Source of the DNA: Thiothrix subterranea
Lineage (GTDB): Bacteria; Pseudomonadota; Gammaproteobacteria; Thiotrichales; Thiotrichaceae
Reading direction: 5' to 3'
Assembly: GCF_030930995.1 (NCBI RefSeq)
Contig: NZ_CP133217.1
Location: 930,001-994,000 of the forward strand
Length of the DNA stretch: 64,000 nt
Shown here one piece after another: positions 30,617 through 46,725 of the stretch. The first letter of the stretch is position 1; every line of letters starts with the position of its first letter. Made by a program: the position numbers and the translations under genes. The notes under the pieces were generated by a model. It saw only the letters and a program-made list of their open reading frames with translations. It made no database searches and was not told where the DNA came from.

Positions 30617-30831
30617 ACGCGGTCTTCCCGTTCTTCGTGGATTGTTTGGCTCAAACTGCCGGGGAGTTTGGCAAGTATCTGGCGGCAACGGGCTGCTGCA
30701 ACGCCGCGTTTATTGTGGATGGAAACTATGGTTGGTTTTTTCAAAGCATCCATAACAGATTGGATTGCCAACAGGCTTTTAAGGTCAAGCCGGGCAACTT
30801 CTTGCAATACATGATTTCTGAGTGCGTTCAT
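30613..30831 (-). CDS. Antitoxin-like small protein, partner of the broken PIN toxin
   Basis: About 72 residues from the ATG at 30831, which has AGG eight bases upstream. It begins MNALRNHVLQEVARLDLKSL and has a helical N-terminus with a basic C-terminus. Position (directly before and overlapping a PIN toxin gene by GTGA) is the main evidence that it is an antitoxin; I do not recognise its family. Its toxin is deleted, so it is now an orphan antitoxin. Confidence 0.55.
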   Translation of the reverse strand: MNALRNHVLQEVARLDLKSLLAIQSVMDALKKPTIVSIHNKRGVAAARCRQILAKLPGSLSQTIHEEREDRV

Positions 30832-30914
30832 GGTCATCACCTGTGGTTGCTGCTATGTGAAAAGTATAACATCTTATTTTTCAGGAATCTTTTGGGTTTC
30901 TAAGGAGTAATCGC

Positions 30915-31301
30915 ATGACCACTGCGCCCTCTTGCCCGTTTTGCCAACTCGCGGCGGCGGATATTGTGGCGGAAAATGCGTTTCATGTGGTGATTCGTGA
31001 CCGTTTTCCGGTGTCGTTGGGGCATTCGCTGCTTATTCCGAAGCGTCATGTGGCTTCACTGTTTGAACTCACGGCTGAAGAATTCAACGCTTTGCATGAA
31101 TTGCTGCATATCACCAAGCAGCAACTCGACACGCAATATCAGCCCGCAGGCTATAACGTCGGCGTGAATGTCGGGGAAGCGGCAGGGCAAACGGTGTTTC
31201 ACCTGCATGTGCATGTGATGCCGCGTTATGTGGGTGATCAGGAAGATCCGCGTGGTGGCGTGCGGTGGGTTTTTCCTGAAAAGGCGGTGTATTGGGAATG
31301 A
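30915..31301 (+). CDS. HIT family hydrolase, copy 2 (intact)
   Basis: HIT proteins are nucleotide-phosphate hydrolases or transferases (Hint/Fhit-like). The 128-residue product has CPFCQLAAADIVAEN, GHSLLIPKRHVAS and the His triad HLHVHVMPRY at residues 96-105. AAGGAG just before the ATG is part of the repeated unit: the copies share sequence from AAGGAGTAATC to TGACGGTCA beyond the stop. It is divergent from the orphan PIN antitoxin. Copies 3 and 5 are near identical. Confidence 0.93.
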   Translation: MTTAPSCPFCQLAAADIVAENAFHVVIRDRFPVSLGHSLLIPKRHVASLFELTAEEFNALHELLHITKQQLDTQYQPAGYNVGVNVGEAAGQTVFHLHVHVMPRYVGDQEDPRGGVRWVFPEKAVYWE

Positions 31302-31317
31302 CGGTCAGGATAACAAA

Positions 31318-31647
31318 TCAAACCACCTCGACCAAAAAAGCTCCAGCTTCCAACTCTTGCTTGATTGTTTCCCAATGCTTTCTGAAAATTTCCAGCAATT
31401 TCTGCTTTGAGCAATTACCAATCCGCACCCAAATGATTTTGGGGTACAGCTTGCTGACAGAAGCTCGAAACTGAAAATCATCGTCCTTGGTAATGATTAC
31501 CCAATCGTTTTCCAGTGCAAATGACCAGATTTCTCCATCATCGGCTTCCAACAAACCTGCATCCAGCACATGAATGGCTTCTTCACCCAAACTCGCGAGA
31601 AATCGCGCCAGTGCAGGCGGTAATTGTGCATCAACGACAAAACGCAT
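31318..31647 (-). CDS. DUF5615 PIN-like toxin
   Basis: The 109-residue protein has the DUF5615 pattern: MRFVVDAQLPPALARFL, HVLDAGLLEADDGEIWSFA and VIITKDDDFQFRAS, with the acidic residues expected of a PIN-like RNase site. It starts on the base where the DUF433 antitoxin stops (TAATG), so it is translationally coupled to it. DUF433-DUF5615 pairs are known as toxin-antitoxin modules. A second copy at 34591-34762 has been inactivated by a 158-bp deletion. Confidence 0.85.
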   Translation of the reverse strand: MRFVVDAQLPPALARFLASLGEEAIHVLDAGLLEADDGEIWSFALENDWVIITKDDDFQFRASVSKLYPKIIWVRIGNCSKQKLLEIFRKHWETIKQELEAGAFLVEVV

Positions 31648-31880
31648 TAGGCAGCCTGCAAGATAGGGTGATCAAATTGGCGAGCGGCATACATCAGCAC
31701 GGCGCGGATGTCGGCTGCTTCCAAATAGGGGTAGTCCTCCAGAATCTCTTTGGTTTCCATGCCTTCCGCCAGCATCCCCAGCACATCTTGTACACGGATA
31801 CGCAAGCCGCGAATGCAAGGGCGACCGCCACATTTGCCTGTTTCAACCGTGATGCGGCTTAACAAATTTTCTGATGTCAT
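31647..31880 (-). CDS. DUF433 antitoxin, copy 1
   Basis: The 77-residue product has the DUF433 signature: RITVETGKCGGRPCIRGLRI, VQDVLGMLAEGM, and ILEDYPYLEAADIRAVLMYA. DUF433 proteins have a helix-turn-helix and act as antitoxins and autorepressors. The start is taken at ATG 31880; the frame is open upstream, but that part overlaps the divergent HIT control region. It is near identical to the copy at 34762-34995. Confidence 0.88.
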   Translation of the reverse strand: MTSENLLSRITVETGKCGGRPCIRGLRIRVQDVLGMLAEGMETKEILEDYPYLEAADIRAVLMYAARQFDHPILQAA

Positions 31881-31945
31881 GTTATAACCCACTTGAGTAT
31901 TGGTGTTTCCGACTTTGCTGAAACAGTAACATAAGGAGTAATCAC

Positions 31946-32332
31946 ATGACCACTGCACCCTCTTGCCCGTTCTGCCAACTCGCGGCGGCGGATATTGTGG
32001 CGGAAAATGCGTTTCATGTGGTCATTCGTGACCGTTTTCCGGTGTCGTTGGGGCATTCGCTGCTTATTCCGAAGCGTCATGTGGCTTCACTGTTTGAACT
32101 CACGGCTGAAGAATTCAACGCTTTGCATGAATTGCTGCATATCACTAAGCAGCAATTGGATACCCAACACCAGCCCGCAGGTTATAACATCGGGGTGAAT
32201 GTCGGGGAGGCGGCAGGGCAAACGGTGTCTCACCTGCATGTGCATGTGATGCCGCGTTATGTGGGCGATCAGGAAGATCCGCGTGGTGGCGTGCGGTGGA
32301 TTTTTCCTGAAAAGGCGGTGTATTGGGAATGA
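31946..32332 (+). CDS. HIT family hydrolase, copy 3 (intact)
   Basis: The 128-residue protein is near identical to copies 2 and 5, with the triad HLHVHVMPRY preserved; the residue before it is Ser instead of Phe. The region upstream, shared with copy 5, lies between the gene and the divergent DUF433 antitoxin and carries TAAGGAG. Members act on nucleotide phosphoramidates or related nucleotides; the substrate here is unknown. Confidence 0.92.
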   Translation: MTTAPSCPFCQLAAADIVAENAFHVVIRDRFPVSLGHSLLIPKRHVASLFELTAEEFNALHELLHITKQQLDTQHQPAGYNIGVNVGEAAGQTVSHLHVHVMPRYVGDQEDPRGGVRWIFPEKAVYWE

Positions 32333-32367
32333 CGGTCAGATAGGCAAACGGAATTGGTTGCGAAAAT

Positions 32368-32564
32368 TTACCAACTGCTTGGCTTGGTAATGGATGTTCC
32401 GGGTATCTTATGAGGCAATTGTGCTTGTGCCATATCGTCTAACTTAAGCACTTTCACCCAATGGGATAAGGCTTTCAGTTCCTTGCAGATATGCCGATGA
32501 TCAGAGCTGGCAATCGGCGTGACCAAACCCACTCGCACAGCGGGGCAGTTCGCAAAATATCTAT
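32368..32564 (-). pseudogene. NYN-domain gene copy A, internally deleted
   Basis: Compared with the intact NYN gene at 35483-36148, this copy keeps the start context and the C-terminal part (CPAVRVGLVTPIASSDHRH onward) but has lost about 469 bp in between. Its ATG has become ATA, and the deletion shifts the frame, so the two ends are no longer joined. All catalytic acidic residues are gone. Confidence 0.8.
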
Positions 32565-32710
32565 TCTCCAGAAATGACAAAACCGCCCGAAGGCGGCTTG
32601 CCGCCCCAAGAGCATTTGACCTAGCCAAACGGTCAAGGGGAGAGTCGTTCCCCTATGATAGGATGTTGTAACAGTCACTACAATGCCCTGTTTTCCTCAG
32701 TATGAAAGGA

Positions 32711-33961
32711 TCAAAACCGGAAAGCCTGCGCCATCCTTTCCTGTTCAGACCTGCTGATACCGATAGCTTTTGCCTTCTCCGCCCAATGGCTGACACTCCG
32801 GCAAACCTCTTGTTGAATGCTTTTGGCGCGGGTGGGCTTAACCCTAAAATAATCGGCAACTTCTTGCGCTAAGGCAAAATCCAATTGGTTACTGGATTCG
32901 TTAATGTTCAAGTGCAAGCCGTGGGCAGGCGTAACCGGGTTGATGTCGTATGCCGGTGACAAGCGCCAGCCCTGCGTATCCAGAATGAAACCGTGATTAC
33001 GCAAATGATCGTCGGTATTGGAAATGGCGATGTTGAAAACAATGCGCCGCCAGAGTTGCTCCAAATCTTGCTGGGTTTGTGAGCCGTGGAAGGTAATGAA
33101 CTCCGCTAACTCCAGATAACTGGCTTCATAGTCACCGTCATAATAGCCAAGTTGGGTCATGGCTGAGGTAAAGTGCAGCCGCCTGTTTCCATTACGGTCA
33201 AAACGTTGGGTCAGAAAGGTGTGGTGGGGGCTGTTGAAGCGTAGTAGGCGGGATTTTGCCATGTGTACGCCCGCATCCAGTGCCAATTGGTATGCTACAT
33301 GTTCCCAAGCACCGATGTCGTAATCATCGTAACGGCTGGGAAATTTGGCGATCCAGAGCGAGCCATCGGTATCCTTTACGCAGGCTTTGGGTCTGGCTCC
33401 ACCCAAGGAGGAGCCGGGTGAAATTAGCATGAATAGCCATTTCAGGTAATCGGGATCGTCTGTGTGACGGTCTTCTTCAATCTGGCTGGCAGCGTATTCC
33501 AGTTCTCGCAGCGAACTGATGGGAGGTGCTGCCAATTTGTCGTTATTGTCCAGAAACGAACCATTGGTATCCCGCTTAAAACGTAGACCACCCATACGGT
33601 AATGGTCATGTACGCCCAGCAGGTAATCCACCTCCAGCAGCACGTTGGCGCGGCGTTCTTCCCGTCTGGCGATGGCGGCTTCGCGACGTTTCATCAGCAA
33701 GCGACCCCAGCGATCAGGGCAGGAATCCAGAAATACCCGGAAATTTTGACTTTCACTGAACTGGCGACCAGCAAACAAGTGCAGATCAGGGTCTATGGGA
33801 AGGGCATGGGAAGATGCAAGCCATTCAGCGGCATACTCAAAATTGAACAACTCTTTGTTGCGAGTCAGGGTAGAGGTCAGTGTGCCAACCAACTGCGGTG
33901 CAGGTAGCCCGCCACCATCGGGTAGAATCCAGTCGGCGTATACGTGGATGGTCGTTTCCAT
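32711..33961 (-). CDS. hipA: HipA family Ser/Thr kinase toxin
   Basis: HipA toxins phosphorylate targets such as GltX and cause dormancy. The 416-residue protein has an N-terminal subdomain (LVGTLTSTLTRNKELFNFEY), a Gly-rich loop (SPGSSLGGARPKA), a Lys in LWIAKFPSRYDDYD, and the catalytic loop ISNTDDHLRNHGFIL with a DINP metal motif. It overlaps hipB by one base (TAATG), the classical antitoxin-first order. Intact, so a functional module is plausible. Confidence 0.9.
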   Translation of the reverse strand: METTIHVYADWILPDGGGLPAPQLVGTLTSTLTRNKELFNFEYAAEWLASSHALPIDPDLHLFAGRQFSESQNFRVFLDSCPDRWGRLLMKRREAAIARREERRANVLLEVDYLLGVHDHYRMGGLRFKRDTNGSFLDNNDKLAAPPISSLRELEYAASQIEEDRHTDDPDYLKWLFMLISPGSSLGGARPKACVKDTDGSLWIAKFPSRYDDYDIGAWEHVAYQLALDAGVHMAKSRLLRFNSPHHTFLTQRFDRNGNRRLHFTSAMTQLGYYDGDYEASYLELAEFITFHGSQTQQDLEQLWRRIVFNIAISNTDDHLRNHGFILDTQGWRLSPAYDINPVTPAHGLHLNINESSNQLDFALAQEVADYFRVKPTRAKSIQQEVCRSVSHWAEKAKAIGISRSEQERMAQAFRF

Positions 33962-34284
33962 TATTTTCCGCCCTTCTTGTCAGCACCCAGCAATTTAGCG
34001 TCCTGCAATTTGCGCCCAAATTCATCATCCTGCGCTACGTTGGCAAGGTCTTCCGCTAGATTCAGTGCTGCCAACATAGTCAGGTAGTGACCGATGGAAA
34101 CTCCAGCATCTCCCTTTTCGATTTTACGCAAAGTGATGGGGCTGATACCGGTGCGTTCGCTGATCAGTTTCTGGGTAAGCTGGCGGCGTTTGCGTGCCAA
34201 CTTGATGTTTTCTCCCAAGGTGCGCAGGATTTTTTGCTGCTTGGGGAAGAGGATAGCTTTGCGTCGGTCTACCAAGTCATTCAT
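33961..34284 (-). CDS. hipB: HipB-type XRE antitoxin
   Basis: The 107-residue protein has a helix-turn-helix (LARKRRQLTQKLISERTGIS, then ITLRKIEKGDAGVSIG) of the Cro/CI type as in HipB, which binds HipA and the operon operator. Its C-terminus is basic (LGADKKGGK). The gene sits 61 bases from the truncated HIT copy 4 on the other strand. The region upstream includes TATTATAGTA, a possible promoter. Confidence 0.88.
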   Translation of the reverse strand: MNDLVDRRKAILFPKQQKILRTLGENIKLARKRRQLTQKLISERTGISPITLRKIEKGDAGVSIGHYLTMLAALNLAEDLANVAQDDEFGRKLQDAKLLGADKKGGK

Positions 34285-34345
34285 AAAGACACTATTCTCA
34301 TGCTTTGTCGGGAAAAAGCATATTATAGTATCTTTTCAAGCAGAA

Positions 34346-34574
34346 GGCTGAAGAATTCAACGCTTTGCATGAATTGCTGCATCTCACCCAGCAGCAATTG
34401 GATACCCAACACCAGCCCGCAGGCTATAACATCGGGGTGAATGTTGGGGAGGCGGCAGGGCAAACGGTGTTTCACCTGCATGTGCATGTGATGCCGCGTT
34501 ATGTGGGCGATCAGGAAGATCCGCGTGGTGGCGTGCGGTGGATTTTTCCTGAAAAGGCGGTGTATTGGAAATGA
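34346..34574 (+). pseudogene. HIT-family gene copy 4, C-terminal fragment
   Basis: Homology to the other HIT genes begins abruptly at GGCTGAAGAATTCAACG (34346-34362) and runs to the stop. It keeps HLHVHVMPRY but lacks the N-terminal half, and no Shine-Dalgarno precedes its first internal ATG at 34365. Its left edge is the same 17-mer at which copy 1 ends, so copies 1 and 4 read like two halves of one gene. Confidence 0.85.
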
Positions 34575-34590
34575 CGGTCAGGAGAACAAA

Positions 34591-34762
34591 TCAAACCACC
34601 TCGACCAAAAAAGCTCCAGCTTCCAACTCTTGCTTGATTGTTTCCCAATGCTTTCTGAAAATTTCCAGCAGTTTCTGCTTTGAGCAATTACCAACCCGCA
34701 CCCAAACTCGCGAGAAATCGCGCCAGTGCAGGCGGTAATTGTGCATCAACGACAAAACGCAT
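34591..34762 (-). pseudogene. DUF5615 toxin copy 2, 158-bp deletion
   Basis: Aligned with 31318-31647, this copy lacks 158 bp between two direct ACCCAAA repeats (31427 and 31585 in the intact copy), leaving one ACCCAAA at 34700-34706. The frame reads MRFVVDAQLPPALARFLASLG and then stops. The toxin is dead while its antitoxin gene is complete. Confidence 0.85.
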
Positions 34763-34995
34763 TAGGCAGCCTGCAAGATAGGGTGATCAAATTGGCGAGC
34801 GGCATACATCAGCACGGCGCGGATGTCGGCTGCTTCCAAATAGGGGTAGTCCTCCAGAATCTCTTTGGTTTCCATGCCTTCCGCCAGCATCCCCAGCACA
34901 TCTTGTACACGGATACGCAAGCCGCGAATGCAAGGGCGACCACCACATTTGCCTGTTTCAACCGTGATGCGGCTTAACAAATTTTCTGATGTCAT
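34762..34995 (-). CDS. DUF433 antitoxin, copy 2 (orphan)
   Basis: This 77-residue protein is near identical to the DUF433 antitoxin at 31647-31880 and fully intact. Its own toxin is deleted, so it can only act on the product of the first copy or regulate DNA. The ATG at 34995 corresponds to that used for copy 1. Confidence 0.85.
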   Translation of the reverse strand: MTSENLLSRITVETGKCGGRPCIRGLRIRVQDVLGMLAEGMETKEILEDYPYLEAADIRAVLMYAARQFDHPILQAA

Positions 34996-35060
34996 GTTAT
35001 AACCCACTTGAGTATTGGTGTTTCCGACTTTGCTAAAACAGTAACATAAGGAGTAATCAC

Positions 35061-35447
35061 ATGACCACTGCGCCCTCTTGCCCGTTCTGCCAACTCGCGG
35101 CGGCGGATATTGTGGCGGAAAATGCGTTTCATGTGGTCATTCGTGATCGTTTTCCGGTGTCGTTGGGGCATTCGCTGATTATTCCGAAACGCCATGTGGC
35201 TTCACTGTTTGAACTTACGCCTGAAGAATTCAACGCTTTGCATGAATTGCTGCATCTCACCAAGCAGCAACTCGACACGCAATATCAGCCCGCAGGCTAT
35301 AACGTCGGCGTGAATGTCGGCGAAGCCGCTGGGCAAACGGTGTTTCACCTGCATGTGCATGTGATACCGCGTTATACGGGCGATCAGGCTGATCCGCGTG
35401 GTGGCGTGCGGTGGATTTTTCCTGAAAAAGCGGTGTATTGGGAATGA
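35061..35447 (+). CDS. HIT family hydrolase, copy 5 (intact)
   Basis: The 128-residue protein has the intact triad HLHVHVIPRY and a few substitutions relative to copies 2 and 3 (TPEEFN, RYTGDQADP). It is preceded by the same AAGGAGTAATCAC leader as copy 3 and stands divergent to the DUF433 gene. Presence of three intact, slightly diverged paralogues suggests that gene conversion or dosage keeps them alive. Confidence 0.92.
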   Translation: MTTAPSCPFCQLAAADIVAENAFHVVIRDRFPVSLGHSLIIPKRHVASLFELTPEEFNALHELLHLTKQQLDTQYQPAGYNVGVNVGEAAGQTVFHLHVHVIPRYTGDQADPRGGVRWIFPEKAVYWE

Positions 35448-35482
35448 CGGTCAAATAGGCAAACGGAATTTGTTGCGAAAAT

Positions 35483-36148
35483 TTACCAACTGCTTGGCTT
35501 GGTAATGGATGTTCCGGGTATCTTATGAGGCAATTGTGCTTGTGCCATATCGTCTAACTTAAGCACTTTCACCCAATGGGATAAGGCTTTCAGTTCCTTG
35601 CAGATATGCCGATGATCAGAGCTGGCAATCGGCGTGACCAAACCCACTCGCACAGCGGGGCAATGCTGGCGAATTGCCTTCAATGCTCCTTCCATATCGC
35701 TGTCATTGCTGCATAACACCACTTGTTCACATTGCCCAAGGAATGCTGCTGTCAGCATATCACTGGCAATGTTCACGTCGGTTTTTTTCTCAGTCAGCGT
35801 GATAACCCTCGCCATCGTCAACTCTGGTGCTGCCGGAATCGGTTCCGCAAGGCGCAGAATGGGAGTGCTTTTAACCAGTTTCCCTTCAAAAACAGCAATC
35901 TTTTCTGGGTGTAATTTGCGTAATGCTTGCAGGTATTGCCGTTGGCGTTGGGGGGATGCGGGATCATCGCACAACGAACCCAATACCGGTGCGGTGTAAT
36001 AACGCACTTCCAGTAATTCTGTTTCTGGCAACAAGAGGCGTTCTTGGAATAGCTTGAAAATATCCAGCCACTTGTAAGGTGTGTGCCGCACTATGCCGTA
36101 GTACAAGTTGTAGCCGTCAATGAAAACGATGGTTCGCAAAATATTCAT
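35483..36148 (-). CDS. NYN-domain (PIN-like) nuclease
   Basis: NYN proteins share the PIN/FLAP RNase fold. The 221-residue protein has RTIVFIDGYNLYYG near the N-terminus, EKKTDVNIASDMLTAAF in the middle and VVLCSNDSDMEGALKAI near residue 145, each with acidic residues expected at the metal site. The ATG at 36148 is only one base from GGAG; the in-frame TTG at 36139, nine bases from GGAG, is a better-spaced start and fits the family N-terminus. No antitoxin partner is apparent. Confidence 0.82.
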   Translation of the reverse strand: MNILRTIVFIDGYNLYYGIVRHTPYKWLDIFKLFQERLLLPETELLEVRYYTAPVLGSLCDDPASPQRQRQYLQALRKLHPEKIAVFEGKLVKSTPILRLAEPIPAAPELTMARVITLTEKKTDVNIASDMLTAAFLGQCEQVVLCSNDSDMEGALKAIRQHCPAVRVGLVTPIASSDHRHICKELKALSHWVKVLKLDDMAQAQLPHKIPGTSITKPSSW

Positions 36149-36165
36149 TCTCCAGAAATGACAAA

Positions 36166-36181
36166 GCCGCCCGAAGGCGGC
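36166..36181 (-). promoter_or_regulatory. UUCG-loop hairpin in the NYN leader
   Basis: On the minus strand GCCGCC-TTCG-GGCGGC makes a very stable tetraloop hairpin followed by TTTGTCATTT, about 20 bases before the NYN start. It could attenuate transcription or protect the message. The same hairpin (with one terminal change) precedes the deleted copy A near 32585. Confidence 0.5.
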
Positions 36182-36298
36182 TTGCCGCCCCAAGAGCATT
36201 TGACCTAGCCAAACGGTCAAGGGGAGAGTCGTGTTTCTATGATAGGATATTGTAACCGTAACTACAATGCCCAGTTTTCCTCAGCTTAAATTGAATCA

Positions 36299-36421
36299 AC
36301 GGTGTTTCACCTGCGTATGCATGTGATGCCGCGTTATGTGGGCGATCAGGAAGATCCGCGTGGTGGGGTGCGGTGGATTTTTCCTGAAAAGGCGGTGTAT
36401 TGGGGGGTTATTTCGGAGTAG
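36299..36421 (+). pseudogene. HIT-family gene copy 6, C-terminal remnant
   Basis: Forty codons match the C-terminus of the HIT genes (RYVGDQEDPRGGVRWIF, EKAVYWG) but the triad now reads HLRMHVMP, so one catalytic His is Arg. There is no start codon or leader. The remnant ends against the 3' end of the sulfur-binding-domain gene. Confidence 0.8.
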
Positions 36422-36424
36422 CTC

Positions 36425-36916
36425 CTAAGTCGATGTCACGTCTATTTCTAGCCCCACACCATCCAACACATCTTGATGAATTGAGGAAGGATAGTTGTCG
36501 TTTAGCAAGATCATTGCTGCCTGTTCCAGCAGTTCAGGATTAGCGGTGAGTAAGGCAAATGCTTCCGTGCTAAAGCCGCCTTCGATTTTATGGTCACGGA
36601 GGCATTTCCTGCTGACACGACCGGATTTTGTGGTGGGTACGGTATGGCTTTGTGGAATTTCCCAGATTTCCTCTGAGCGTAAACGCCAGAAAGGGTATTC
36701 AGGATGAGGTGGGCGATTGGGGCCGAAGTCTTCGATTATTTGTTGTAATTTTTCCTCAATTTCATCGAAGGGCATTAAGCGTGGTTTTCCGGCTTGAATT
36801 CGTGCTAAGGCGAGTAGCAGCATTAATGGCTTATGTGGTTCGCGTCGTCCATCGGCATACCAGACGTTCATATCGGAAATGTAATTGAGAAATTTTTGTG
36901 GAATCATGGGCTTCAT
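36425..36916 (-). CDS. Sulfur-binding-domain protein lacking HNH nuclease (ScoMcrA/SprMcrA-like SBD)
   Basis: The 163-residue product matches the SBD of phosphorothioate-dependent restriction endonucleases: NVWYADGRREPHKPLMLLLA with RIQAGKPRLMPFDEIEEKL, PPHPEYPFWRLRSEEIWEIP, and the end PSSIHQDVLDGVGLEI. In those enzymes an HNH domain follows directly after this point; here the protein stops. The SBD should still be able to bind phosphorothioated DNA. The gene ends four bases from a HIT remnant, so its 3' half was probably lost in that rearrangement. It stands divergent to the Ssp-like operon. Confidence 0.75.
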   Translation of the reverse strand: MKPMIPQKFLNYISDMNVWYADGRREPHKPLMLLLALARIQAGKPRLMPFDEIEEKLQQIIEDFGPNRPPHPEYPFWRLRSEEIWEIPQSHTVPTTKSGRVSRKCLRDHKIEGGFSTEAFALLTANPELLEQAAMILLNDNYPSSIHQDVLDGVGLEIDVTST

Positions 36917-36953: not shown

Positions 36954-37007
36954 TTGAATGTTGCTTTTATCTATGTAATGTTACACTTAAAATGTTATGT
37001 GACATAG
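36954..37007 (+). promoter_or_regulatory. Promoter/operator of the Ssp-like operon
   Basis: CTATGT (36971-36976) and ACATAG (37002-37007) form an outer dyad containing two inner palindromes, GTAATGTTAC (36975-36984) and TATGTGACATA (36996-37006), about 21 bp apart. TTGAAT at 36954-36959 can be a -35. Paired palindromes in front of a ribbon-helix-helix gene suggest autoregulation. Confidence 0.45.
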
Positions 37008-37027: not shown

Positions 37028-37243
37028 ATGGCAAGGGGCGTGAGTGGCAGAATTGTCATTGAAATAAATCCAGATATAAAACAAGAATTATATGAACAAC
37101 TTATGGTGAATAACGTTAGTTTGAAAAGCTGGTTTTTGGAAAATGTTGAATCTTTTCTCAAGGGCAAGCAGCAACTCACATTATCATTGACCCCGCCTAT
37201 CATTTCAAAAGAAAAAGTAGATAATGAGCGAGCATCTGCATGA
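37028..37243 (+). CDS. Small ribbon-helix-helix-like regulator
   Basis: The 71-residue protein (GRIVIEINPDIKQELYEQLM then VSLKSWFLENVESFL) has the strand-helix-helix layout of RHH/CopG-type DNA-binding proteins. The ATG at 37028 has GGAG nine bases upstream; a second ATG at 37013 has no suitable site. It overlaps the DUF4007 gene by ATGA, so it is the first gene of the operon. Probably an operon repressor acting on the palindromes at 36971-37007; that role is inferred. Confidence 0.6.
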   Translation: MARGVSGRIVIEINPDIKQELYEQLMVNNVSLKSWFLENVESFLKGKQQLTLSLTPPIISKEKVDNERASA

Positions 37244-38172
37244 AATTCAACCCTAAAAAAATGTCTTTTGGAAGGCATGAAACATTCCCCTTGCGTTACA
37301 GTTGGCTAACCAAAGCCTATCAAGAGGTAGCAAACGATTCAGCAGTATTTGATGCAGATGACGCGACTGTTAGACTTGGCGTTGGTAAAAATATGGTCAA
37401 TGCTATTCGTTACTGGGCGCAAGCTACCCAAATCATCGAAAAAACAGAAACAGGCTACCAACCGACACAGCTAGGTGATTTTATCTTTGATGAGAACGAA
37501 GGTGTTGATCCCTATCTTGAGGATGAAGCTACAATTTGGTTATTACATTGGCACATGGCAAGCAATCCTGAACAGGCAACTTGCGCCTACTGGATGTTCA
37601 ACCGTTATCACAAACCAGAGTTCACATCAGAACAAGCTATTGATTCTTTGGTGGATTTTGTAAGGCAGAACAGCACTACAAAACCATCGAAAAATACACT
37701 TAAAAATGATGTGGCTGTCGCTTTGCGTATGTATTCCGATACCCGCCCGAAAGCTAAACAGTTTTCAGACGAATTTTTGGATACGCCGTTTGCGTCCATC
37801 AAGCTCTTATCCTTATTGCCTGATAACAAAACGTATAAGGTACAAGTGGGTGATCATGGACACTTGTCTATCGAGGTACTAGCTTATGCAGTTGCATCGC
37901 TGTTCAATGCAACAGGAGAAAAGGCATTGGCTATCGAAGATTTGATGTATGGCAAAAATGACTATCCAGCACCGGGAGCTGTATTTTGCCTGACTGAAAG
38001 TGCTTTTCTCTATAAACTAGAAAAATTAGAGCAGAGAAAAGATACGCCGTTCAGGTTTCGGGAAACAGCAGGAGTCAGGGTGCTTTTCAGAACAAGTGAT
38101 GCCCAACTTGAACCTATGAGCTACCTGCGCCGTTACTACAAACAATCGAACTTTATTGAGGCAGCAGCATGA
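37240..38172 (+). CDS. sspB: DUF4007 protein, SspB-like
   Basis: The 310-residue protein starts with the DUF4007 signature SFGRHETFPLRYSWLTKAYQ and continues VRLGVGKNMVNAIRYWAQA and IWLLHWHMASNPEQAT. From memory, DUF4007 is the domain of SspB, the nicking component of the SspABCD single-strand phosphorothioation system; the gene order here (DUF4007, ATPase, PAPS-reductase-like) fits that assignment. It is coupled by ATGA overlaps to both neighbours. AT-rich base composition, unlike the flanking chromosome. Confidence 0.8.
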   Translation: MKFNPKKMSFGRHETFPLRYSWLTKAYQEVANDSAVFDADDATVRLGVGKNMVNAIRYWAQATQIIEKTETGYQPTQLGDFIFDENEGVDPYLEDEATIWLLHWHMASNPEQATCAYWMFNRYHKPEFTSEQAIDSLVDFVRQNSTTKPSKNTLKNDVAVALRMYSDTRPKAKQFSDEFLDTPFASIKLLSLLPDNKTYKVQVGDHGHLSIEVLAYAVASLFNATGEKALAIEDLMYGKNDYPAPGAVFCLTESAFLYKLEKLEQRKDTPFRFRETAGVRVLFRTSDAQLEPMSYLRRYYKQSNFIEAAA

Positions 38173-41100
38173 GCTTAGCCGGACAAATACAAGTCAATAC
38201 AAATTACACACGTTCAATTAACCTTGAGCGCGATGCTGACTCACTAGCTATTGTTAATGCCTATATTCCAACCACTCGTGCATTGGATACATTGGCGCGT
38301 GTCGGCGAAACCATTACAACAGTGAAAAGTATGCCTCGCGCATGGACGCTAATGGGGCCATATGGTTCGGGAAAGTCATCCTTTGCCGTATTTCTTTCGC
38401 ACTTGTTAGGCGCAGCAGATGATGTAGCCACGGATGCGGCTCAAGCAGTCCTAGCACGTTGCAATGAGATAGTTATTGACCAGTTTTGGGATGAAAATGG
38501 GGAGTCATTGGAGCATTGCAGAGTTTTCTTGACCGGCAGCCCTGAGCCACTAAGTAAACGACTTGCTAAATCATTACATGAGGGAGCTACGGCATTCTTC
38601 TCTCGTGGACAACGGCAGTATCCGTTAGTACTTGAACAATTAGCTCACTTATCTGCACAAGATCATATTACCGTTACGGAAACGATTGATACGATCAACC
38701 AGTTACAAGAAGCAGTGGCTAGTGCAGGAGGCTACGGTGTTTTGATTGTGATTGATGAGCTAGGTAAGTTCCTAGAGTATGAAGCTCGTCACCCTGAAGC
38801 AAACGATATTTACTTGTTACAAGCATTGGCTGAGCAGGCATATAAAGGCTGTGAAGATGAGAAAGGAGCAATTCTTTCAGTGTTCGTGTTGCTGCACCAA
38901 TCGTTTGAACAATATGCGCGTGGATTAGGTCGTACTCAACGTAATGAATGGGCAAAAGTTCAAGGACGTTTTGAAGTTATTCCTTTCCTAGAGTCCGCAG
39001 AACAAACTTTACGAATTGTTAGTAAAGCCGTTGAACAACCTAAAAAACTTCCAAAGGCAGTAACGAAAGAAACAGAACAATTATCTGATTTATTAGGTAA
39101 GTGGCAGGCTTTGCCAAGCACTTTAGATCAGCATTCTGCTAGTCAATTGTTCCAACAATGCTATCCGTTACACCCTATCAGTGCATTGTTGTTGCCACTG
39201 CTTTGCCAAAAAGTGGCTCAAAATGAGCGCACCTTATTCAACTATTTGGGAAGCACAGAGGCATTTGGGTTTCAGGATAGTCTCAAACGTTTAGAGCGTC
39301 TTGGTGATTGGATTTACCCTTGGGAAATTTACGACTACTTTATTAGTAACCAACCTGCTGCGGTCGTTGACCATCTTACACATCGTCGTTGGACAGAAGT
39401 TGTCACCGCGTTAGAGCGTTTAGGCGATGATAACCCTGATGCAGTGAGAGTTCTGAAAACCGTGGGTTTGTTGAATCTGATCGGGGCGCAAGCGGGCTTA
39501 AAAGCCTCTAAGGAAATCCTCAGTTATTGTTTGCATGACTCTGATGCTGTCACGAATGCGTTGGAAGTGTTGCAGAAACGTGCAGTTCTACAATTACGCA
39601 AGTACAATAACGAGTACCGTGTATGGCAAGGTAGTGACTTTGATTTAGAACTCCGCTTGCAGGAAGAACGCGGTAAATTAGGTGTATTCAGCCTTGCAGA
39701 ACGCCTTAGTAGGCAACATGGTGGAATGCCGATTGTTGCACGCAAATTCTCCATTCAAAAAGGAGCAATGCACTATTTCACGACGGCGTTTACTGATGCC
39801 AGTTCAGTGAATCAAATTGGCGAAAGTGCGAGTGTTCCGCGTATTGTTTTCTATCTCGCTGAAGATCAACGGGACGATGAAACCTTTATTAAGCAAGTCG
39901 TTGCTCATGCCTCGCCGCTTGATGTATTGGTGAAATACCCTCATGCAGCAGCACTACGCGATGCAGTTGCCGATGTTTTAGCATTAGAAGCCGTGCAAAA
40001 CAAATCCCAAGAGCTACATTCTGATCCAGTCGCACAACGAGAGTTCAGAGATTACTACCAAGCGGCACTACAGGCGGAAGAAACTCAAGTTCACCTACTG
40101 TTAGAGCAGCCTCAGCGTAGCCAATGGTATTGGCAAGGTAAACCTGTTCAGATTGATGGTAAACGGGCGTTTCAAAACAAACTATCTGACATATTAGGTA
40201 GCTTGTATTGCCGAATGCCAACGATCAAAAATGAACTGATCAACCGCGACAAACCATCAAGCCAAGCAGCCGCAGGGCGTAACAAATTACTTGAAATGAT
40301 GCTCTTGCATCCAGATAAAGAAGCCTTAGGTATTGAAAAATTCCCGCCTGAAAAAGCTATGTATCTTGCGTTATTGCGTGAGTCCGGCATTCATCGGCAG
40401 GATGAAACAGGTAAATGGGGATTTTTCTCACCCACTAGTGGCAGTTCTTTACAGGCAACTTGGGCGGAAATTGAGGAGTTTCTGAATTCAACTGAGCAGA
40501 AAGCTCGACCTTTCAGTGATCTGGATGGCATCTTAACTTCAACACCATTTGGTCTAAAAAATGGTGTGTTGCCTGTGTTGTATTTGGCGGCTTACTTTGT
40601 ACATCAAGACGAATTAGCTTTATACGAAGACGGTCAGTACCTCCCGACACTCAGTAAAGATGTCTTAGAACGTTTTGTGAAAACACCAGAACTGTTTAAG
40701 GTGCAACTGTTTAGAATTGAAGGTATCCGCGCCACTATTTTCAAAGAATACATGACTGCCTTATTCACCGATGGCAAGACACGAAGTGTAGTTCAGGCTA
40801 TCAAACCACTAGCTACATTTGTGGGTGGTTTGAATGAATACACACAAAAGACTAGTGATCTGCCTGAACACGCCAAGGCATTCCGCAATGCATTCCACTT
40901 ATCTAAATCACCCGAACAATTACTGTTTGAGGGAATACCCCAAGCACTAGGTTTCGAGATAAGAGCAACCGAACAAGCCAAATTCGATGGTTATGTTGAA
41001 AGGCTCAAGGATACGCTAAGTGCATTGAAACATGCTTACTCTAAGATGTTAGATGATCAACAAAAGCTCTTAGCACAAGCTTTACGCCTGAAAGCTAATG

Positions 41101-41645
41101 CTACGATTCCTGAGATGAGACGCATCACGGGGCGTTATGTAGGACTTGATGCATATACGGTAGATACCGACGGATTGAAAGCATTCATCAACCGACTGAC
41201 CAATTCGGATAAAGTTGATCACGATTGGTTTATCAGCATCCTTATGTTTCTTGGCAAGAAATCACCGGAAAAATGGCTGGATGGCGATAAAGCACAAGCA
41301 GACATGCGGCTGAGTGAATATTCTCGACGTATGCTTGATCTTGAGGCTTTACGGATTCATGACCAAAAAAGACAAAATACCCAAGATGAATTTGATGTTA
41401 TCTTATTGAAATCAATAAAAAAAGGTGAAAAAGAGCGTCAACAACCTGTTGCAATAAGTAAAATGCAGAGAGAAGCCACAGATGAGCTAAAAAGCCGATT
41501 AAATCATCAATTATCTGGTGCTGATAAAGAATTACAACTTGCAGTATTAGCTGAATTAGTGGATGATTTCTTGCGTGATTATCAGACAACTCAACGCCCC
41601 AAAGTAGTTGCCCCTAAGCAATTGAGTAAAGTTAAACATGACTAA
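38169..41645 (+). CDS. sspC: Large P-loop ATPase, SspC-like
   Basis: The 1158-residue protein has Walker A GPYGSGKSSF at residues 63-72 and Walker B VLIVIDELGKFLEYE near residue 195. The rest is mostly helical and ends in a charged region. Position between DUF4007 and PAPS-reductase-like genes, with a 4-base overlap at the start and 8 bases at the end, supports SspC, the ATPase of the modification complex. BREX BrxC proteins also look like this, but no BREX pglX, pglZ or brxL is here. Intact. Confidence 0.75.
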   Translation: MSLAGQIQVNTNYTRSINLERDADSLAIVNAYIPTTRALDTLARVGETITTVKSMPRAWTLMGPYGSGKSSFAVFLSHLLGAADDVATDAAQAVLARCNEIVIDQFWDENGESLEHCRVFLTGSPEPLSKRLAKSLHEGATAFFSRGQRQYPLVLEQLAHLSAQDHITVTETIDTINQLQEAVASAGGYGVLIVIDELGKFLEYEARHPEANDIYLLQALAEQAYKGCEDEKGAILSVFVLLHQSFEQYARGLGRTQRNEWAKVQGRFEVIPFLESAEQTLRIVSKAVEQPKKLPKAVTKETEQLSDLLGKWQALPSTLDQHSASQLFQQCYPLHPISALLLPLLCQKVAQNERTLFNYLGSTEAFGFQDSLKRLERLGDWIYPWEIYDYFISNQPAAVVDHLTHRRWTEVVTALERLGDDNPDAVRVLKTVGLLNLIGAQAGLKASKEILSYCLHDSDAVTNALEVLQKRAVLQLRKYNNEYRVWQGSDFDLELRLQEERGKLGVFSLAERLSRQHGGMPIVARKFSIQKGAMHYFTTAFTDASSVNQIGESASVPRIVFYLAEDQRDDETFIKQVVAHASPLDVLVKYPHAAALRDAVADVLALEAVQNKSQELHSDPVAQREFRDYYQAALQAEETQVHLLLEQPQRSQWYWQGKPVQIDGKRAFQNKLSDILGSLYCRMPTIKNELINRDKPSSQAAAGRNKLLEMMLLHPDKEALGIEKFPPEKAMYLALLRESGIHRQDETGKWGFFSPTSGSSLQATWAEIEEFLNSTEQKARPFSDLDGILTSTPFGLKNGVLPVLYLAAYFVHQDELALYEDGQYLPTLSKDVLERFVKTPELFKVQLFRIEGIRATIFKEYMTALFTDGKTRSVVQAIKPLATFVGGLNEYTQKTSDLPEHAKAFRNAFHLSKSPEQLLFEGIPQALGFEIRATEQAKFDGYVERLKDTLSALKHAYSKMLDDQQKLLAQALRLKANATIPEMRRITGRYVGLDAYTVDTDGLKAFINRLTNSDKVDHDWFISILMFLGKKSPEKWLDGDKAQADMRLSEYSRRMLDLEALRIHDQKRQNTQDEFDVILLKSIKKGEKERQQPVAISKMQREATDELKSRLNHQLSGADKELQLAVLAELVDDFLRDYQTTQRPKVVAPKQLSKVKHD

Positions 41646-42465
41646 GCATTTGACGTTACAAGAAGCTTCAGAACTCGAAGATTCACGCCATGTCCTCGGA
41701 CTATCGGGCGGTAAGGATAGTGCTGCTCTCGCTATTTATCTTCGAGATCACTATCCAGACATTCATAATCGGGTTGAGTATTTCTTCACTGATACTGGCG
41801 CTGAGCTTCAAGAAGTTTATGATTTTCTTGATAAATTAGAGGCTTACTTAGGCAAGGAAATTAAAAAACTGAGTCCTGAACGAGATTTTGAACATTGGTT
41901 AAAAATACATAACAACTATCTACCATCGCCTCGGCAGCGTTGGTGTACATCAATGATGAAGATAAAACCATTTGAGAAATTCGTTGGCAATGATCCAGTT
42001 GTGACCTATATCGGCATTCGGGCAGATGAGAATCGAGAAGGTTATGTTAGCCAGAAAGAAAATATTCAAGCAGTTTTTCCTTTTATGGAAGATGGATTAA
42101 TTCGGTCAGATATTTTCCGCATTTTAGAAAATACTGTTGGTATTCCAGAATATTATCGGTGGCGTAGTCGTTCAGGTTGCTACTTCTGCTTCTTCCAACG
42201 TCAAGATGAATGGTTAGGATTAAAGCGCGAACATCCTGATCTTTTTGCAGAAGCTGTTCGCATTGAGAAAGAGTCAGGGCAAGGTTATACGTGGGTGCAA
42301 GGCAAGACGCTTGAAGAAGTAGTTGCACACGCTGAAAAGAAAGAAGGAACACGAACAGCTAATCGTAATGCTAAGAGTGTTCATACAATAAAGTGGCAAG
42401 ATGCTTTAAGAGATCAAGAAGACGATGATCCTGAAGATCAAGCTTGTATGATTTGCTCTCTTTGA
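41638..42465 (+). CDS. sspD: PAPS-reductase-family sulfurtransferase, SspD/DndC-like
   Basis: The protein activates the DNA backbone with ATP and transfers sulfur in phosphorothioation. The 275-residue product has the PP-loop GLSGGKDSAA (Ser23 to Ser28), RWCTSMMKIK with Cys103, and paired cysteines C181-x2-C184 and C270-x2-C273 suited to an iron-sulfur cluster as in DndC. It is about half the length of DndC, closer to SspD. It overlaps the ATPase gene by eight bases and is followed after 22 bases by the DUF262 effector. Confidence 0.85.
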   Translation: MTKHLTLQEASELEDSRHVLGLSGGKDSAALAIYLRDHYPDIHNRVEYFFTDTGAELQEVYDFLDKLEAYLGKEIKKLSPERDFEHWLKIHNNYLPSPRQRWCTSMMKIKPFEKFVGNDPVVTYIGIRADENREGYVSQKENIQAVFPFMEDGLIRSDIFRILENTVGIPEYYRWRSRSGCYFCFFQRQDEWLGLKREHPDLFAEAVRIEKESGQGYTWVQGKTLEEVVAHAEKKEGTRTANRNAKSVHTIKWQDALRDQEDDDPEDQACMICSL

Positions 42466-42487: not shown

Positions 42488-44824
42488 ATGTCAAAAGTAT
42501 CGGATACTTTTACTTCTCAAGCATTATCCATTCAAGACACTTTCTTACTCCATAATAGCAATGTTGGATATAGAGTTCCAATTTATCAGCGTGGTTATCG
42601 TTGGAATGAGGAAAATATTTTTAGGCTTTTTGAATCAATTCTTCATGGCATTGTTCTGCTTGATGAAGATAGTTCCATAAGATTCATAGGAACGATAATA
42701 TTATCTAGCGATAAGGAAAAGAAAGAAAAAGAATTTGGTGGGATTTCATTATCAATAGTAGATGGACAACAAAGATTAAGTACAATTTCATTAATTATCT
42801 GCCGATTAATGAATCAAATAATGCTTAACTTGAAAAAAGTTGATAATTTGAGCGATGAGTTATCTGTGCTATTAAACTCTTTACGTAGCTGCATAGTCGG
42901 AAGAAAAAATAGCACTATAATTAGAAGCTATTTATCAGAGTTTTATCCGAGATTAGTTCGAGAATCTATTGATGCAAGAGGACACACTCCTTTATTGAAA
43001 AAGTATGACTCATTCATAGCGGAGTATTTATTCAGTTTTGGCAGTCATTATTATGATTTCATTTCCGGTGATTTAGATTACAATGACTTTGATTTTACTA
43101 TATCCAATGCAATAAATGGCATCGAAGATCAAGAGTTTTTTAAAAAAGCAATCAATCATATTGATATTTACATAGCTCGCATTGCAAGTGGAAAAAGTTT
43201 AACTGATGATTCCGATAATGAAATATTCCCTTCAACAAACAAACTCCTCAACGACGACAATTATACTAAAGTACTTGAAAGCTGTGGCTTTAGCATCGGC
43301 ACTCATAACTTAGAAGGCTTGAGTGACCCATTATTAAGAATCATTTTTTTCTCTGGCTACTTATTAAATAATGTATCACTTACGTGTGTTCAAGTAGAAG
43401 ATGACAAGTACGTTTTTGACATATTTGATGCACTTAATACTACAGGTGAACCATTAACAGCGATAGAAACATTTAAGCCTGAAGTGATAAAATTCATAGA
43501 AGACAGAAAAGATATAACGGGGGATTTTTCAAGCTCAAACAGTAGACTTTTTTTTGATGAAATAGATAAATATTTGTCTATGAAAACTGAGAATTCAAAA
43601 AGACAAAAAGAAACGAAAGAAATAATAACATCCTTTGCCTTGTATATAAATGGAGACACCCAAAACTATGATTTAAGTGGTCAGCGATTATATCTTAGAA
43701 ATAAGTATGCTTTGATTCCATTGAGTCATAAATCATATGAAAAGAAAGAGCGCTTCGTAAAAGCTTTAAGAGATATAGCCATTTATCGAGAAAAATTTTG
43801 GGAGGAATCATCCCTTACAAATTCATTGCCTGAAATAAAGGATCATCAAGAAAGGCAAAAAATATTATTATGTCTAGATTTTATTAGAAGCATGGATACG
43901 ACCTTAGCGATACCTATTCTGGCAAGATACTATTTTGACGCAGAAAAAACAAAATCATGGGATATTTTCATCAAAGCAGTAAAGTCGGTAACTGCATTTT
44001 TAGCCATTAGACGAGCAGCAACAGGAACAACGGCTGGAATTGATTCTGATTTCAGAAACCTAATGAAAAAAGGACATAAGAAATTAGAATCAAAACATAT
44101 AAAATTAGGTTTATTAGATGACAATGAACTAGCCTCACCTGAAGAACTGAATGTTTATCTGTTATCCTATTTGGACTCACCTAAATTAGGCACTAATAAA
44201 AATAAGATTCTTGATGAAGAAAGCTGGACAAACAAAGTAGTTAAGCAACCTCTTTATGATAAATCCAAAGCTTTATGTAAATTTTTATTATTAGTAGCTT
44301 CGCACAATTCTATAGAAGGCACGGAAAAAAAATATATTCTCTCAAAAGAAGGACGTGATAACTGTAATTTTCTAGAATTAACTAAGTGGCGTGATCACCT
44401 TTATCAAACGGTTGAACATATTGCTCCACAGAATGCAAGAGATCAAAACACTAAAGGGTTATGGAAAGATGAATTATATAATGATATTGATACCATACAC
44501 ACTATTGGGAATTTAATTCTTCTTCCGAAATTAGAAAACACAATTATTGGAAACAAACCCTGGCCTCAAAAGAAAATGTTTTTTAAGGCATTTGCTCAAG
44601 AAGATCAAAAGGAAATACCTAAAGTTATTGAAGAAGCGAAAGAAAAAGCAATTCCGTTTTCTGCGGCAGCAATAAAGGCGATCAATGATGGAAAATACAT
44701 GCCACTAATATCTTCAATTACAGATATAGATGACTGGAATATTGATGTAGTAACAGAAAGAGGCAAAAATATTTGTCATTTAGCTTGGCACGAGCTTTCA
44801 CGGTGGTTAGGCATCGTTACATAG
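42488..44824 (+). CDS. sspE: DUF262/DUF1524 effector, SspE-like
   Basis: SspE senses phosphorothioate on host DNA, hydrolyses nucleotide and nicks phage DNA. The 778-residue protein has the N-terminal DUF262 motifs RVPIYQRGYRW (29-39) and VDGQQR (91-96) with FDALNTTGEPLTAIETF, and a C-terminal DUF1524 HNH-like region: VEHIAPQNAR near residue 643 and HTIGNLILLPKLEN near 672. GmrSD-type enzymes share these domains, so assignment to SspE rests on the operon context. Full length, apparently functional. Confidence 0.82.
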   Translation: MSKVSDTFTSQALSIQDTFLLHNSNVGYRVPIYQRGYRWNEENIFRLFESILHGIVLLDEDSSIRFIGTIILSSDKEKKEKEFGGISLSIVDGQQRLSTISLIICRLMNQIMLNLKKVDNLSDELSVLLNSLRSCIVGRKNSTIIRSYLSEFYPRLVRESIDARGHTPLLKKYDSFIAEYLFSFGSHYYDFISGDLDYNDFDFTISNAINGIEDQEFFKKAINHIDIYIARIASGKSLTDDSDNEIFPSTNKLLNDDNYTKVLESCGFSIGTHNLEGLSDPLLRIIFFSGYLLNNVSLTCVQVEDDKYVFDIFDALNTTGEPLTAIETFKPEVIKFIEDRKDITGDFSSSNSRLFFDEIDKYLSMKTENSKRQKETKEIITSFALYINGDTQNYDLSGQRLYLRNKYALIPLSHKSYEKKERFVKALRDIAIYREKFWEESSLTNSLPEIKDHQERQKILLCLDFIRSMDTTLAIPILARYYFDAEKTKSWDIFIKAVKSVTAFLAIRRAATGTTAGIDSDFRNLMKKGHKKLESKHIKLGLLDDNELASPEELNVYLLSYLDSPKLGTNKNKILDEESWTNKVVKQPLYDKSKALCKFLLLVASHNSIEGTEKKYILSKEGRDNCNFLELTKWRDHLYQTVEHIAPQNARDQNTKGLWKDELYNDIDTIHTIGNLILLPKLENTIIGNKPWPQKKMFFKAFAQEDQKEIPKVIEEAKEKAIPFSAAAIKAINDGKYMPLISSITDIDDWNIDVVTERGKNICHLAWHELSRWLGIVT

Positions 44825-44842: not shown

Positions 44843-45099
44843 TTGAATTTTGACAACCTTTTATCAAGAGCCGACGATTCAGCACTACAATATTTGTTAG
44901 GTGCTGACTTGATGCGTTTAATCCTTCTACTTGATTCAAAGCTTGCAACACCGCAACACCTACGAAAATTAATAATAAACTACCGAACTCCATACTCTCT
45001 ACTGTCATCGAAAGATACAAGAGAAGTATTGTTTGACTTACTTCCAACTAATCAGGCAAGGCTTCTAGCTCAGGTGCTAGGTGTAGATTACAGCCAAAA
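44843..45099 (+). pseudogene. 5' part of helicase gene, cut off by IS66
   Basis: A TTG start with GAGG eight bases upstream opens a frame (NFDNLLSRADDSALQYLLGA, DTREVLFDLLPTNQARLL, LGVDYSQ) that runs into the IS66 left end. Across the 8-bp target duplication AGCCAAAA the frame continues exactly as SQNDLYFSLKN on the right of the element. It is therefore the first about 85 residues of the SF2 helicase at 47430, now separated from it by 2.4 kb. Confidence 0.85.
45092..45099. repeat. Target-site duplication, left copy (AGCCAAAA)
   Basis: AGCCAAAA at 45092-45099 is repeated at 47472-47479, immediately outside both ends of the insertion. Eight bases is the usual IS66-family duplication length. 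Confidence 0.92.
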
Positions 45100-45107
45100 G
45101 TAAACGG

Positions 45108-46725
45108 TCATTCTAGCCCGTCGTTGACATCCGCAAACAAATCCGAGCGCAATGGCTTATCCGCAAACCGTTGTTTCCAACATCTTGGCGTAAGGTCTTG
45201 TACCTGAGAAGCGGGATGCTCACTAACGCGCAACAGAACATCCATCAGATAGACATACGGGTTAATGTCATGCAGGCGGCAGGTGGTGATCAGGCTTTGG
45301 ATGATGCCCACGTGTTCCGCGCCGAGTTCTGTCCAGCAGAACAACCAGTTTTTCCTGCCCATGGGGATGGGGCGCAGGGCGCGTTCGATGTGGTTGGTAT
45401 CCATTGGCACGTCGGGATCTTCCAGAAACACGCGCAGTTCGTGTTCGCGGCGGATGACATAACCAAGGGCTTTGGTGAGCGGGTTGGAGGGGATTAAATC
45501 GGCACGTTGTAATCGGGTTTGGCACCATTCAAAGAACTGGTCGACCAACGGCTTGCTGTGGGTGAGGCGGTAGGTACGTTTGGCTTCCCCGTCGAGTTTT
45601 TTCTCGTTAATCCGGGCTTCGTGCTGATAGAGTGCCGCGATGGTGTCCAGTGCCTGACGCACCGCTTGTGGTTCAGCGGTTTCGGCGGCAATGAAGGTGC
45701 GACGGCTGTGTACCCAGCATTGGGCATGGGTAATCTTGTCATTGGCGTTGACGTAACTGGCATAAGCACGGTAACCGTCGCTGAGCAGTGTGCCGCTGAA
45801 CTGTTGGCGAAGGGTCTTTTCAATGTGTTGCCGCCCACGGCTGGCGGAGAAGGTGAAGACGATTTCGTCCTGATCCCCGTACAGCGGCCAGAAGTAGCCT
45901 TGCTTCATCTTGCCGTTGCCTGCGGGGCTGGCTTTGATGGGGGTTTCGTCCATCGCCAGCAGCTTGCTTTGCAGTACGCTGGCGAGTTGCGCTTCGGCAA
46001 TGGGTTTGAGTAGGTCGATGGTGCGTTTCACCGCATTGGTCAGCGTCGTGCGGCTGAGGGTGATCCCCGCTTGGGTCAGGCGTTGGTGCTGGCGGTACAG
46101 GGGCAGGTGATACTGGAACTTGTCGACCAACATCCCCACCAAAAAGCTGACATCGGTGACGCTGCGTTCCAGCACGTTGGCGGGTGCAGGGCTGGGAAGC
46201 GGTGGGTTGCTGAGCGAAGCCGAAGCACTGCCCTTACGTTTGATGACGGGGCGCTCGTATTGCAGGATCAGGTAGCTGGCAGGGCGTTGCGCCACCCGAT
46301 GGGTCACCTGGGTGCCGATCACCTCATACTGGTCAGCCTCTTCCCCTGAAGTTCCGGCGGGGTGAGGTGAATCACCTTGACCGGGACATCGGCGGTAAAG
46401 CGTAACCCGCTGTCATTCACGCAGTCATCGGGGCGCAGCTTGGGGGCTTTGCCGCGTTGGTAGGTGACGGTAATGCTTTCACCCTTGGTGCGGCAACCGG
46501 GGTGGCGGCGGGGGCAAACAACGGCAACTGCGCCACCGGTATCTCAACCGGACGCTTTTCCGATTTGCTGCCAAAGGCATGTTGCCTGAACCACGCTAAT
46601 TGGCGTTTTAATTCGGCTATATCCTGTTTCAGGGCAGCATTTTCCTCACGCAACGCCAGCATTTCCGCCACAATCGGCGGCATGGGAACGCTGGTGTCAG
46701 ACGGGGTGGATGGCTTTAAAATCAT
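45108..46725 (-). pseudogene. tnpC: IS66 transposase TnpC, two frameshifts
   Basis: Three consecutive reading frames together give a full IS66 transposase. Frame 1 (46725 to about 46485) carries the leucine-zipper-like start (MLALREENAALKQDIAELKR). Frame 2 (to about 46340) has the zinc-finger part ITVTYQRGKAPKLRPDDC. Frame 3 (to 45108) holds the catalytic domain (LLAMDETPIKASPAG, LLSDGYRAYASYV, DTNHIERALRPIPMGRKNW). The second shift is a missing G in a run near 46345. Either a decayed gene or sequencing errors. Confidence 0.8.

Follow-up and report, generated by a model that had tools for sequence, protein, structure and literature searches.

A stand-alone sulfur-binding domain beside the ssp operon of Thiothrix subterranea: a candidate reader of phosphorothioate self-marks

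Introduction

Why would a sulfur-binding domain (SBD) of the kind found in SBD-HNH restriction endonucleases be encoded alone, without a nuclease, beside an operon for phosphorothioate (PT) modification of DNA? The question is raised by a 64,000-nucleotide stretch of Thiothrix subterranea DNA (NZ_CP133217.1, positions 930,001 to 994,000; hereafter the window), in which a short SBD gene is transcribed divergently from a 71-aa gene and the sspBCD-sspE operon (Table 1). Encoded with the writer but free of a nuclease, such a protein may be a dedicated reader of PT as self, and a type IV restriction enzyme would here have become what looks like a partner of the modification that it once attacked.

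Table 1. Positions of the SBD gene, its putative cavity residues and the neighboring features in the window
Feature	Positions	Strand	Remark
HIT gene 3' remnant, ~107 bp	36298..36404	+	convergent with the SBD gene; 91.6-97.2% identity to the corresponding portion in four HIT copies
Stand-alone SBD gene	36425..36916	-	163-aa ORF; profile, PDB and model matches
Y74-P75	36692..36697	-	aligned with ScoMcrA Y164-P165
H28-K29	36830..36835	-	aligned with ScoMcrA H116-R117, sulfur cavity
Two palindrome-like boxes, TGTAATGTTACA and TGTTATGTGACA	36974..37004		divergent promoter region
71-aa gene, first in ssp operon	37028..37243	+	ribbon-helix-helix-like by eye; no Pfam match
sspB (DUF4007)	37240..38172	+	PADLOC model
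sspC (P-loop ATPase)	38169..41645	+	PADLOC model
sspD (PAPS-reductase-like)	41638..42465	+	PADLOC model
sspE effector (GmrSD_N/GmrSD_C)	42488..44824	+	PADLOC model

Results

The window protein is a complete SBD

We compared the 163-aa ORF with NF045808, the model of SBD-HNH restriction endonucleases, which matched over profile positions 3-155 of 284 (E 3e-41). The score of 141.4 bits fell below the 180-bit cut-off of the model because the HNH half is absent; the N-terminal SBD of this family is present in the ORF, the C-terminal HNH nuclease is not, and the protein is predicted not to cut DNA. SBD chains of ScoMcrA in the PDB also matched the ORF by sequence (5zmo, E 3.6e-9). An AF2 model of the protein (pLDDT 90.7) returned the SBDs of ScoMcrA, SprMcrA and Hga as the top matches of a structure search, and the match to 5zmo (Z 21.4, rmsd 2.0) spanned model residues 5-161, indicating that the SBD is complete. 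The true start is probably the ATG at 36907 (MIPQ..., 160 aa), since this ATG is common to all four Thiothrix copies of the gene. The profile, the AF2/5zmo match and PADLOC agree with the initial annotation that a whole SBD without its nuclease adjoins a PT-modification operon.

The roles of the cavity residues of ScoMcrA have been described (PMC6224610), and alignment placed H116, R117, Y164, P165 and A168 of that enzyme at H28, K29, Y74, P75 and R78 of the window protein, which therefore has the sulfur-cavity residues at the first four positions and an arginine at the A168 position. K29, P30, L33, P75 and W85 were invariant in 13 aligned SBDs of the stand-alone, fused and viral-contig kinds. 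Three of the four Thiothrix copies have Q at position 28, the equivalent of H116, which is reported to be among the most conserved SBD positions (PMC6224610). The substitution is not decisive against PT reading, because SprMcrA has Tyr at the H116 position and retains PT binding (PMC7470945). Isolated SBDs (the first 170 residues of the homologs from E. coli and M. morganii) bind PT-DNA in vitro (PMC6224610), and a stand-alone SBD can therefore be a reader.

The gene ends at an ancestral stop codon

The initial annotation described a frame cut at the border of a HIT remnant. The frame does end short of an HNH half and the remnant lies ~20 bp beyond the stop, but the orthologs point away from the remnant as the cause. 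The ortholog in the Thiothrix genome G053 has 163 codons from the aligned GTG, ends in ...EIDVTST and is divergent from sspB. A copy in a Thiothrix sp. MAG (L027, in G807 coordinates) is 75% identical, with a frame 7 residues longer; that of T. fructosivorans (L028) is frameshifted, and its remaining part has the same final residues and stop position. All three adjoin sspBCD, and the DNA downstream of the gene differs in all four copies. Homology between the window and G053 stops within the stop codon (match to 36426), suggesting that the rearrangement joined just behind an already terminated gene; in G053 a HIT gene lies nearby, convergent, with one other gene between. A recent truncation by a HIT-bearing rearrangement would account for the position of the remnant; however, the same C-terminus is found in G053 and T. 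fructosivorans in front of other DNA, and an HNH-tail profile detected no HNH remnant in the ~1.5 kb behind each of the four copies (the best hit had E 2.6). As a control, one of the profile's own rows returned 4e-82, and tails were detected in 11 SBD loci that were outside the profile or re-fetched. We discarded such a truncation on the evidence of the orthologs, which leave it scarcely any probability, and regard the stop as ancestral.

The SBD gene is under purifying selection. Pairwise dN/dS among the three full-length copies was 0.081, 0.088 and 0.110, with a range of 0.071-0.134 once the T. fructosivorans part was included, and the frames are intact in three species at dS 0.7-1.75.

The HIT remnant is itself part of repeated blocks at 30801-36404, composed of HIT, NYN and small toxin-antitoxin-like genes with copies 91-97% identical. 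Elsewhere in the same genome, an HNH match (G000:C2:772344-772739; 303-codon frame, profile 156-283) was considered as the lost half and set aside, because its relatives in G001 and G009 differ in frame length.

Stand-alone SBDs group with Thiothrix SBD-HNH enzymes

Phylogenetic analysis of 26 SBD domains united the four stand-alone rows in a single clade (100/100), nested in a group that also contains five SBD-HNH rows of the Thiothrix family (80/93); the SBDs of the SspF and SspB fusions made up a separate clade (100/99). The topology held after removal of the long rows (the phage row and six HNH rows), with an HNH-only clade not rejected (p-AU 0.087). The window SBD is 54% identical to the Thiothrix SBD-HNH members. 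Descent from an SBD-HNH enzyme by loss of the HNH half, as the initial annotation had claimed, is the most likely origin, given the moderate support of the tree and the wide spread of SBD-HNH; the nuclease half was probably lost once, long ago. That annotation had also reasoned that homologs of exactly 163 residues, widespread and never fused to HNH, would argue the other way. Half of this picture was found: the short form is kept in four Thiothrix genomes and is never HNH-fused there, whereas its nearest relatives are fused.

HNH-less SBDs occur with ssp genes

We surveyed a genus set of 16 Thiothrix genomes, taking an SspD at least 91% identical as the mark of a close cassette. Five genomes have such an SspD (G000, G807, G053, G028 and G049). 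An HNH-less SBD is present in four of them and in none of the other 11 (Fisher p=0.0027, the frameshifted G049 copy being counted), so that the SBD is encoded with sspBCD across species. The gene is at least dispensable, since it is absent from G028 and G025 (SspB 74% and 89% identical) and frameshifted in T. fructosivorans.

SBD-HNH genes were recovered from five of the 11 genus genomes without a close cassette (G056, G015, G009, G805 and G040) and from none of the five with one (p=0.12). The proposal of a conflict between SBD-HNH enzymes and a PT writer, to be sought in relatives without the cassette, was thus borne out in direction, and the full gene does occur in such relatives, but the difference was not significant. 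Moreover, in a family sample of 60 genomes, SBD-HNH (12 genomes) and SspB (10) overlapped in one genome, G009, which is about what chance would give (p=0.67). All three genomes with an HNH-less SBD drawn in this sample carry SspB (10/60; p=0.0035). G009 has kept SBD-HNH and has an sspFGH-type locus (SspD 50% identical) without a stand-alone SBD.

At class level, the SBD profile A1 matched in 15 of 369 genomes: one stand-alone SBD (G000), three HNH-less fusions (G003, G257 and G307), seven with HNH (G005, G078, G105, G268, G294, G359 and G418) and four fragmentary or weak matches (G141, G159, G381 and G390), which were excluded from the HNH-less count. All four full-length HNH-less SBDs lie in ssp loci. 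Profile A1 contained three SspF fusions and one SspB fusion, and the independent NF045808 model recovers the same four loci. SspB was above the cut-off in 12 of 339 class genomes, a different draw from the SBD scan; the class-level Fisher value of 9e-7 mixes the two draws, drops the four fragments and gives direction only. A phylum sample yielded SBD matches in 6 of 398 genomes, the window's being the only stand-alone one. Eleven plasmid records and one phage matched the SBD; the seven of these 12 that were examined all have HNH sequence, whole or interrupted, and SspB, SspC, SspD and SspE were not found beside the SBD in these seven (3 kb on each side where the record allows).

Two kinds of fused SBD occur in ssp loci. 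Three SspF genes directly after sspD carry an N-terminal HNH-less SBD (L066:4619-7036, L067:4260-6674 and L068:7308-9683; 805, 804 and 791 aa), with PADLOC SspF matching from about residue 210 (E 7.5e-32, 5e-29 and 3e-26), and the gene that follows scores as SspG in L066 and L132 (the L068 locus). Canonical SspF sampled in G300 and G178 has no N-terminal SBD; a class scan with a threshold of E 1e-8 recovered SspF from 4 of 303 genomes. G307 encodes a 459-aa fusion of an SBD with a DUF4007/SspB paralog (L069:7707-9086, also L130 and L131; E 5.5e-22 and 2.9e-18). Its alignment with the SspB rows was poor and was set aside. The gene clusters with SspC-like, PglZ and BrxL genes; upstream of it are sspBC and, near an IS66 transposase, a short SspD frame. 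The fusions to SspF and to the SspB paralog in a BREX-like arm suggest that PT reading has been brought to the restriction side, and they suggest where in the machinery such reading would act.

SBDs without a nuclease were also recovered from viral contigs. On a 146-kb contig (L119:6852-8402, the same as L138), an SspD frame (E 5.5e-90) lies 15 bp ahead of a 196-aa SBD frame (NF045808 E 1.5e-31); searches of the L119 record for SspB and SspC, run without a positive control, found neither. L146:8800-9324 encodes a 174-aa stand-alone SBD (NF045808 E 2.6e-6, over part of the profile) between sspBCD and a helicase gene, and genes that look endolysin-like and recombinase-like by eye lie ahead of sspBCD. 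A model of this SBD (pLDDT 90.0) matched 8h0l, the Hga SBD, in Foldseek (E 4.5e-11, TMq 0.77, 34% identity). In L141 (2159-2662), a 167-aa stand-alone SBD (E 3.4e-12) is located ~0.9 kb upstream of sspB in a locus with complete sspBCD. Of 22 viral contigs with SspB and SspC frames, 17 from one scan and 5 more from another, two (L141 and L146) carry a stand-alone SBD, a rough proportion because the contigs include near-duplicates and cut flanks. These viral scans rely on short patterns, by which relatives are missed.

The control region and the effector position

The box TGTAATGTTACA in the divergent promoter region is identical in all six aligned loci, two of them (G028 and G025) without the SBD gene. 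The 71-aa gene, which follows the boxes in G028 and G025 as well, likely encodes an autoregulator. The effector behind sspD varies: the window and G053 have a near-identical type of SspE, L027 has a distant SspE and T. fructosivorans has PbeA. As the effector varies while the SBD stays, the SBD would be tied to the writer or the marks rather than to one effector.

Discussion

The role that we propose, at slightly short of even chances, is that the stand-alone SBD is a non-cutting reader of PT self-marks serving Ssp. An SBD-HNH type IV nuclease would have lost its HNH half in the ancestor of these Thiothrix species, and the leftover SBD would have been retained beside the PT writer, traveling with the Ssp cassette in some Thiothrix. 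It would bind the PT marks laid by SspBCD (CpsCA) on self DNA without cutting, and report or guard these sites for the DNA-acting arm of Ssp; the SBDs fused to SspF and to the SspB paralog would do the same in cis. The full SBD fold, the K29/P75 core of the pocket, the missing nuclease, the purifying selection and the tight link to ssp all count for such a reader. Counted against it are the failure of SBDSpr to read CpsCA (PMC7470945), the ability of SspE to read PT unaided (PMC9646914), the Q that three of the four copies have in place of H116, the frameshift in one of the four and the dispensability of the gene.

The same properties could serve other ends. A free SBD might act as an anti-restriction shield, covering PT sites and out-competing the SBD-HNH nucleases of the genus so that the ssp island can enter or persist. 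The nearest relatives of the SBD are indeed SBD-HNH enzymes of the same genus, by identity and in the trees, these are present in five of the 11 genomes without a close cassette, and such enzymes are reported to restrict entry of a PT writer cluster (PMC6224610). We nevertheless consider a shield unlikely: none of the five cassette-bearing genomes has an SBD-HNH enzyme, so no resident enzyme needs blocking, G009 has SBD-HNH beside an sspFGH-type system and manages without a stand-alone SBD, and the fused SBDs are at odds with a pure shield. Feedback on the writer or its promoter, in which the SBD on PT sites or on the divergent promoter would limit or place the marks or repress the operon, is suggested by the divergent arrangement with a conserved control region in common, by the fusion of one SBD to an SspB paralog and by the position of the SBD directly after sspD in L119 and L146. 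In addition, the SBD of HNH proteins in Dnd neighborhoods is called a winged helix (PMC10853773). The palindromic boxes, however, persist in G028 and G025 without the SBD gene and thus more likely serve the 71-aa gene; the neighbors of the SspB-paralog fusion (SspC-like, PglZ and BrxL) resemble a restriction arm more than the writer; and the promoter has no conserved CpsCA-type site, the CCA of the window being CTA in four aligned loci. We hold feedback to be quite unlikely.

It is also conceivable that PT reading has been lost, leaving the gene with another function or slowly disappearing. A vestige would show features such as the Q for H116 in three copies, the T. fructosivorans frameshift and the lack of the gene in G028 and G025, but dN/dS of 0.08-0.11 with intact frames in three species at the dS values given above, together with the full fold and the retained K29 and P75, makes such decay improbable. 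We keep the non-cutting reader as our working proposal.

Among known systems, the SBD-HNH endonucleases (NF045808; ScoMcrA, SprMcrA and EcoWI) share with the window protein the SBD fold across its whole length and the equivalents of K/R117 and P165, and differ from it in having the HNH domain and in being rarely placed beside a PT writer; SBD-HNH genes are reported as rare near dnd genes (<3.6%; PMC7461809). The SBD variant of SspF in SspABCD-SspFGH (L066, L067 and L068) is likewise an HNH-less SBD in an ssp cassette, right after sspD, but its SBD forms one protein with the SspF ATPase and falls in a clade separate from the Thiothrix stand-alone clade. The PT-sensing effectors SspE and DndI also use a PT-reading hydrophobic pocket for self-recognition (PMC9646914, PMC11662687); unlike the SBD, they have an unrelated fold fused to an NTPase/nickase, and the window has SspE as well. 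In the full-text literature available to us, mostly outside subscription journals, we found neither a description of ssp genes accompanied by a stand-alone SBD nor one of SspF or SspB carrying such a domain. DndB-type regulators are likewise encoded by a small accessory gene beside a PT writer. DndB is described as a negative regulator (PMC7461809), and the main text of the article that defines SspFGH makes no mention of an SBD (PMC8092258).

A broader proposal, possible but rather doubtful, is that the SBD is a mobile, nuclease-free reader module that Ssp systems recruited several times, either alone (Thiothrix, a phage and two provirus-like contigs) or as the N-terminal part of SspF or an SspB paralog. 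Ssp would then couple a reader to its writer: a bound SBD would mark existing PT and steer restriction, perhaps also new modification, to or away from the sites. Many of the sites of a PT system stay unmarked, and a mobile reader, if real, could bear on how sparse PT marks still protect the host.

Further observations concern the genes behind sspD. In T. fructosivorans, the PbeA homolog (L028:308-2398, E 6e-186) occupies the sspE position behind sspBCD, and L027 and the window have SspD ~99% identical with distant SspE, an exchange of effector behind a conserved writer. The helicase gene behind sspE in the window (44843-45103 and 47430-48836) is split by an IS66 element at 45108-47386; its relatives are unsplit in G053 (L075) and L146, and in G028 the relative continues to the end of the L070 stretch.
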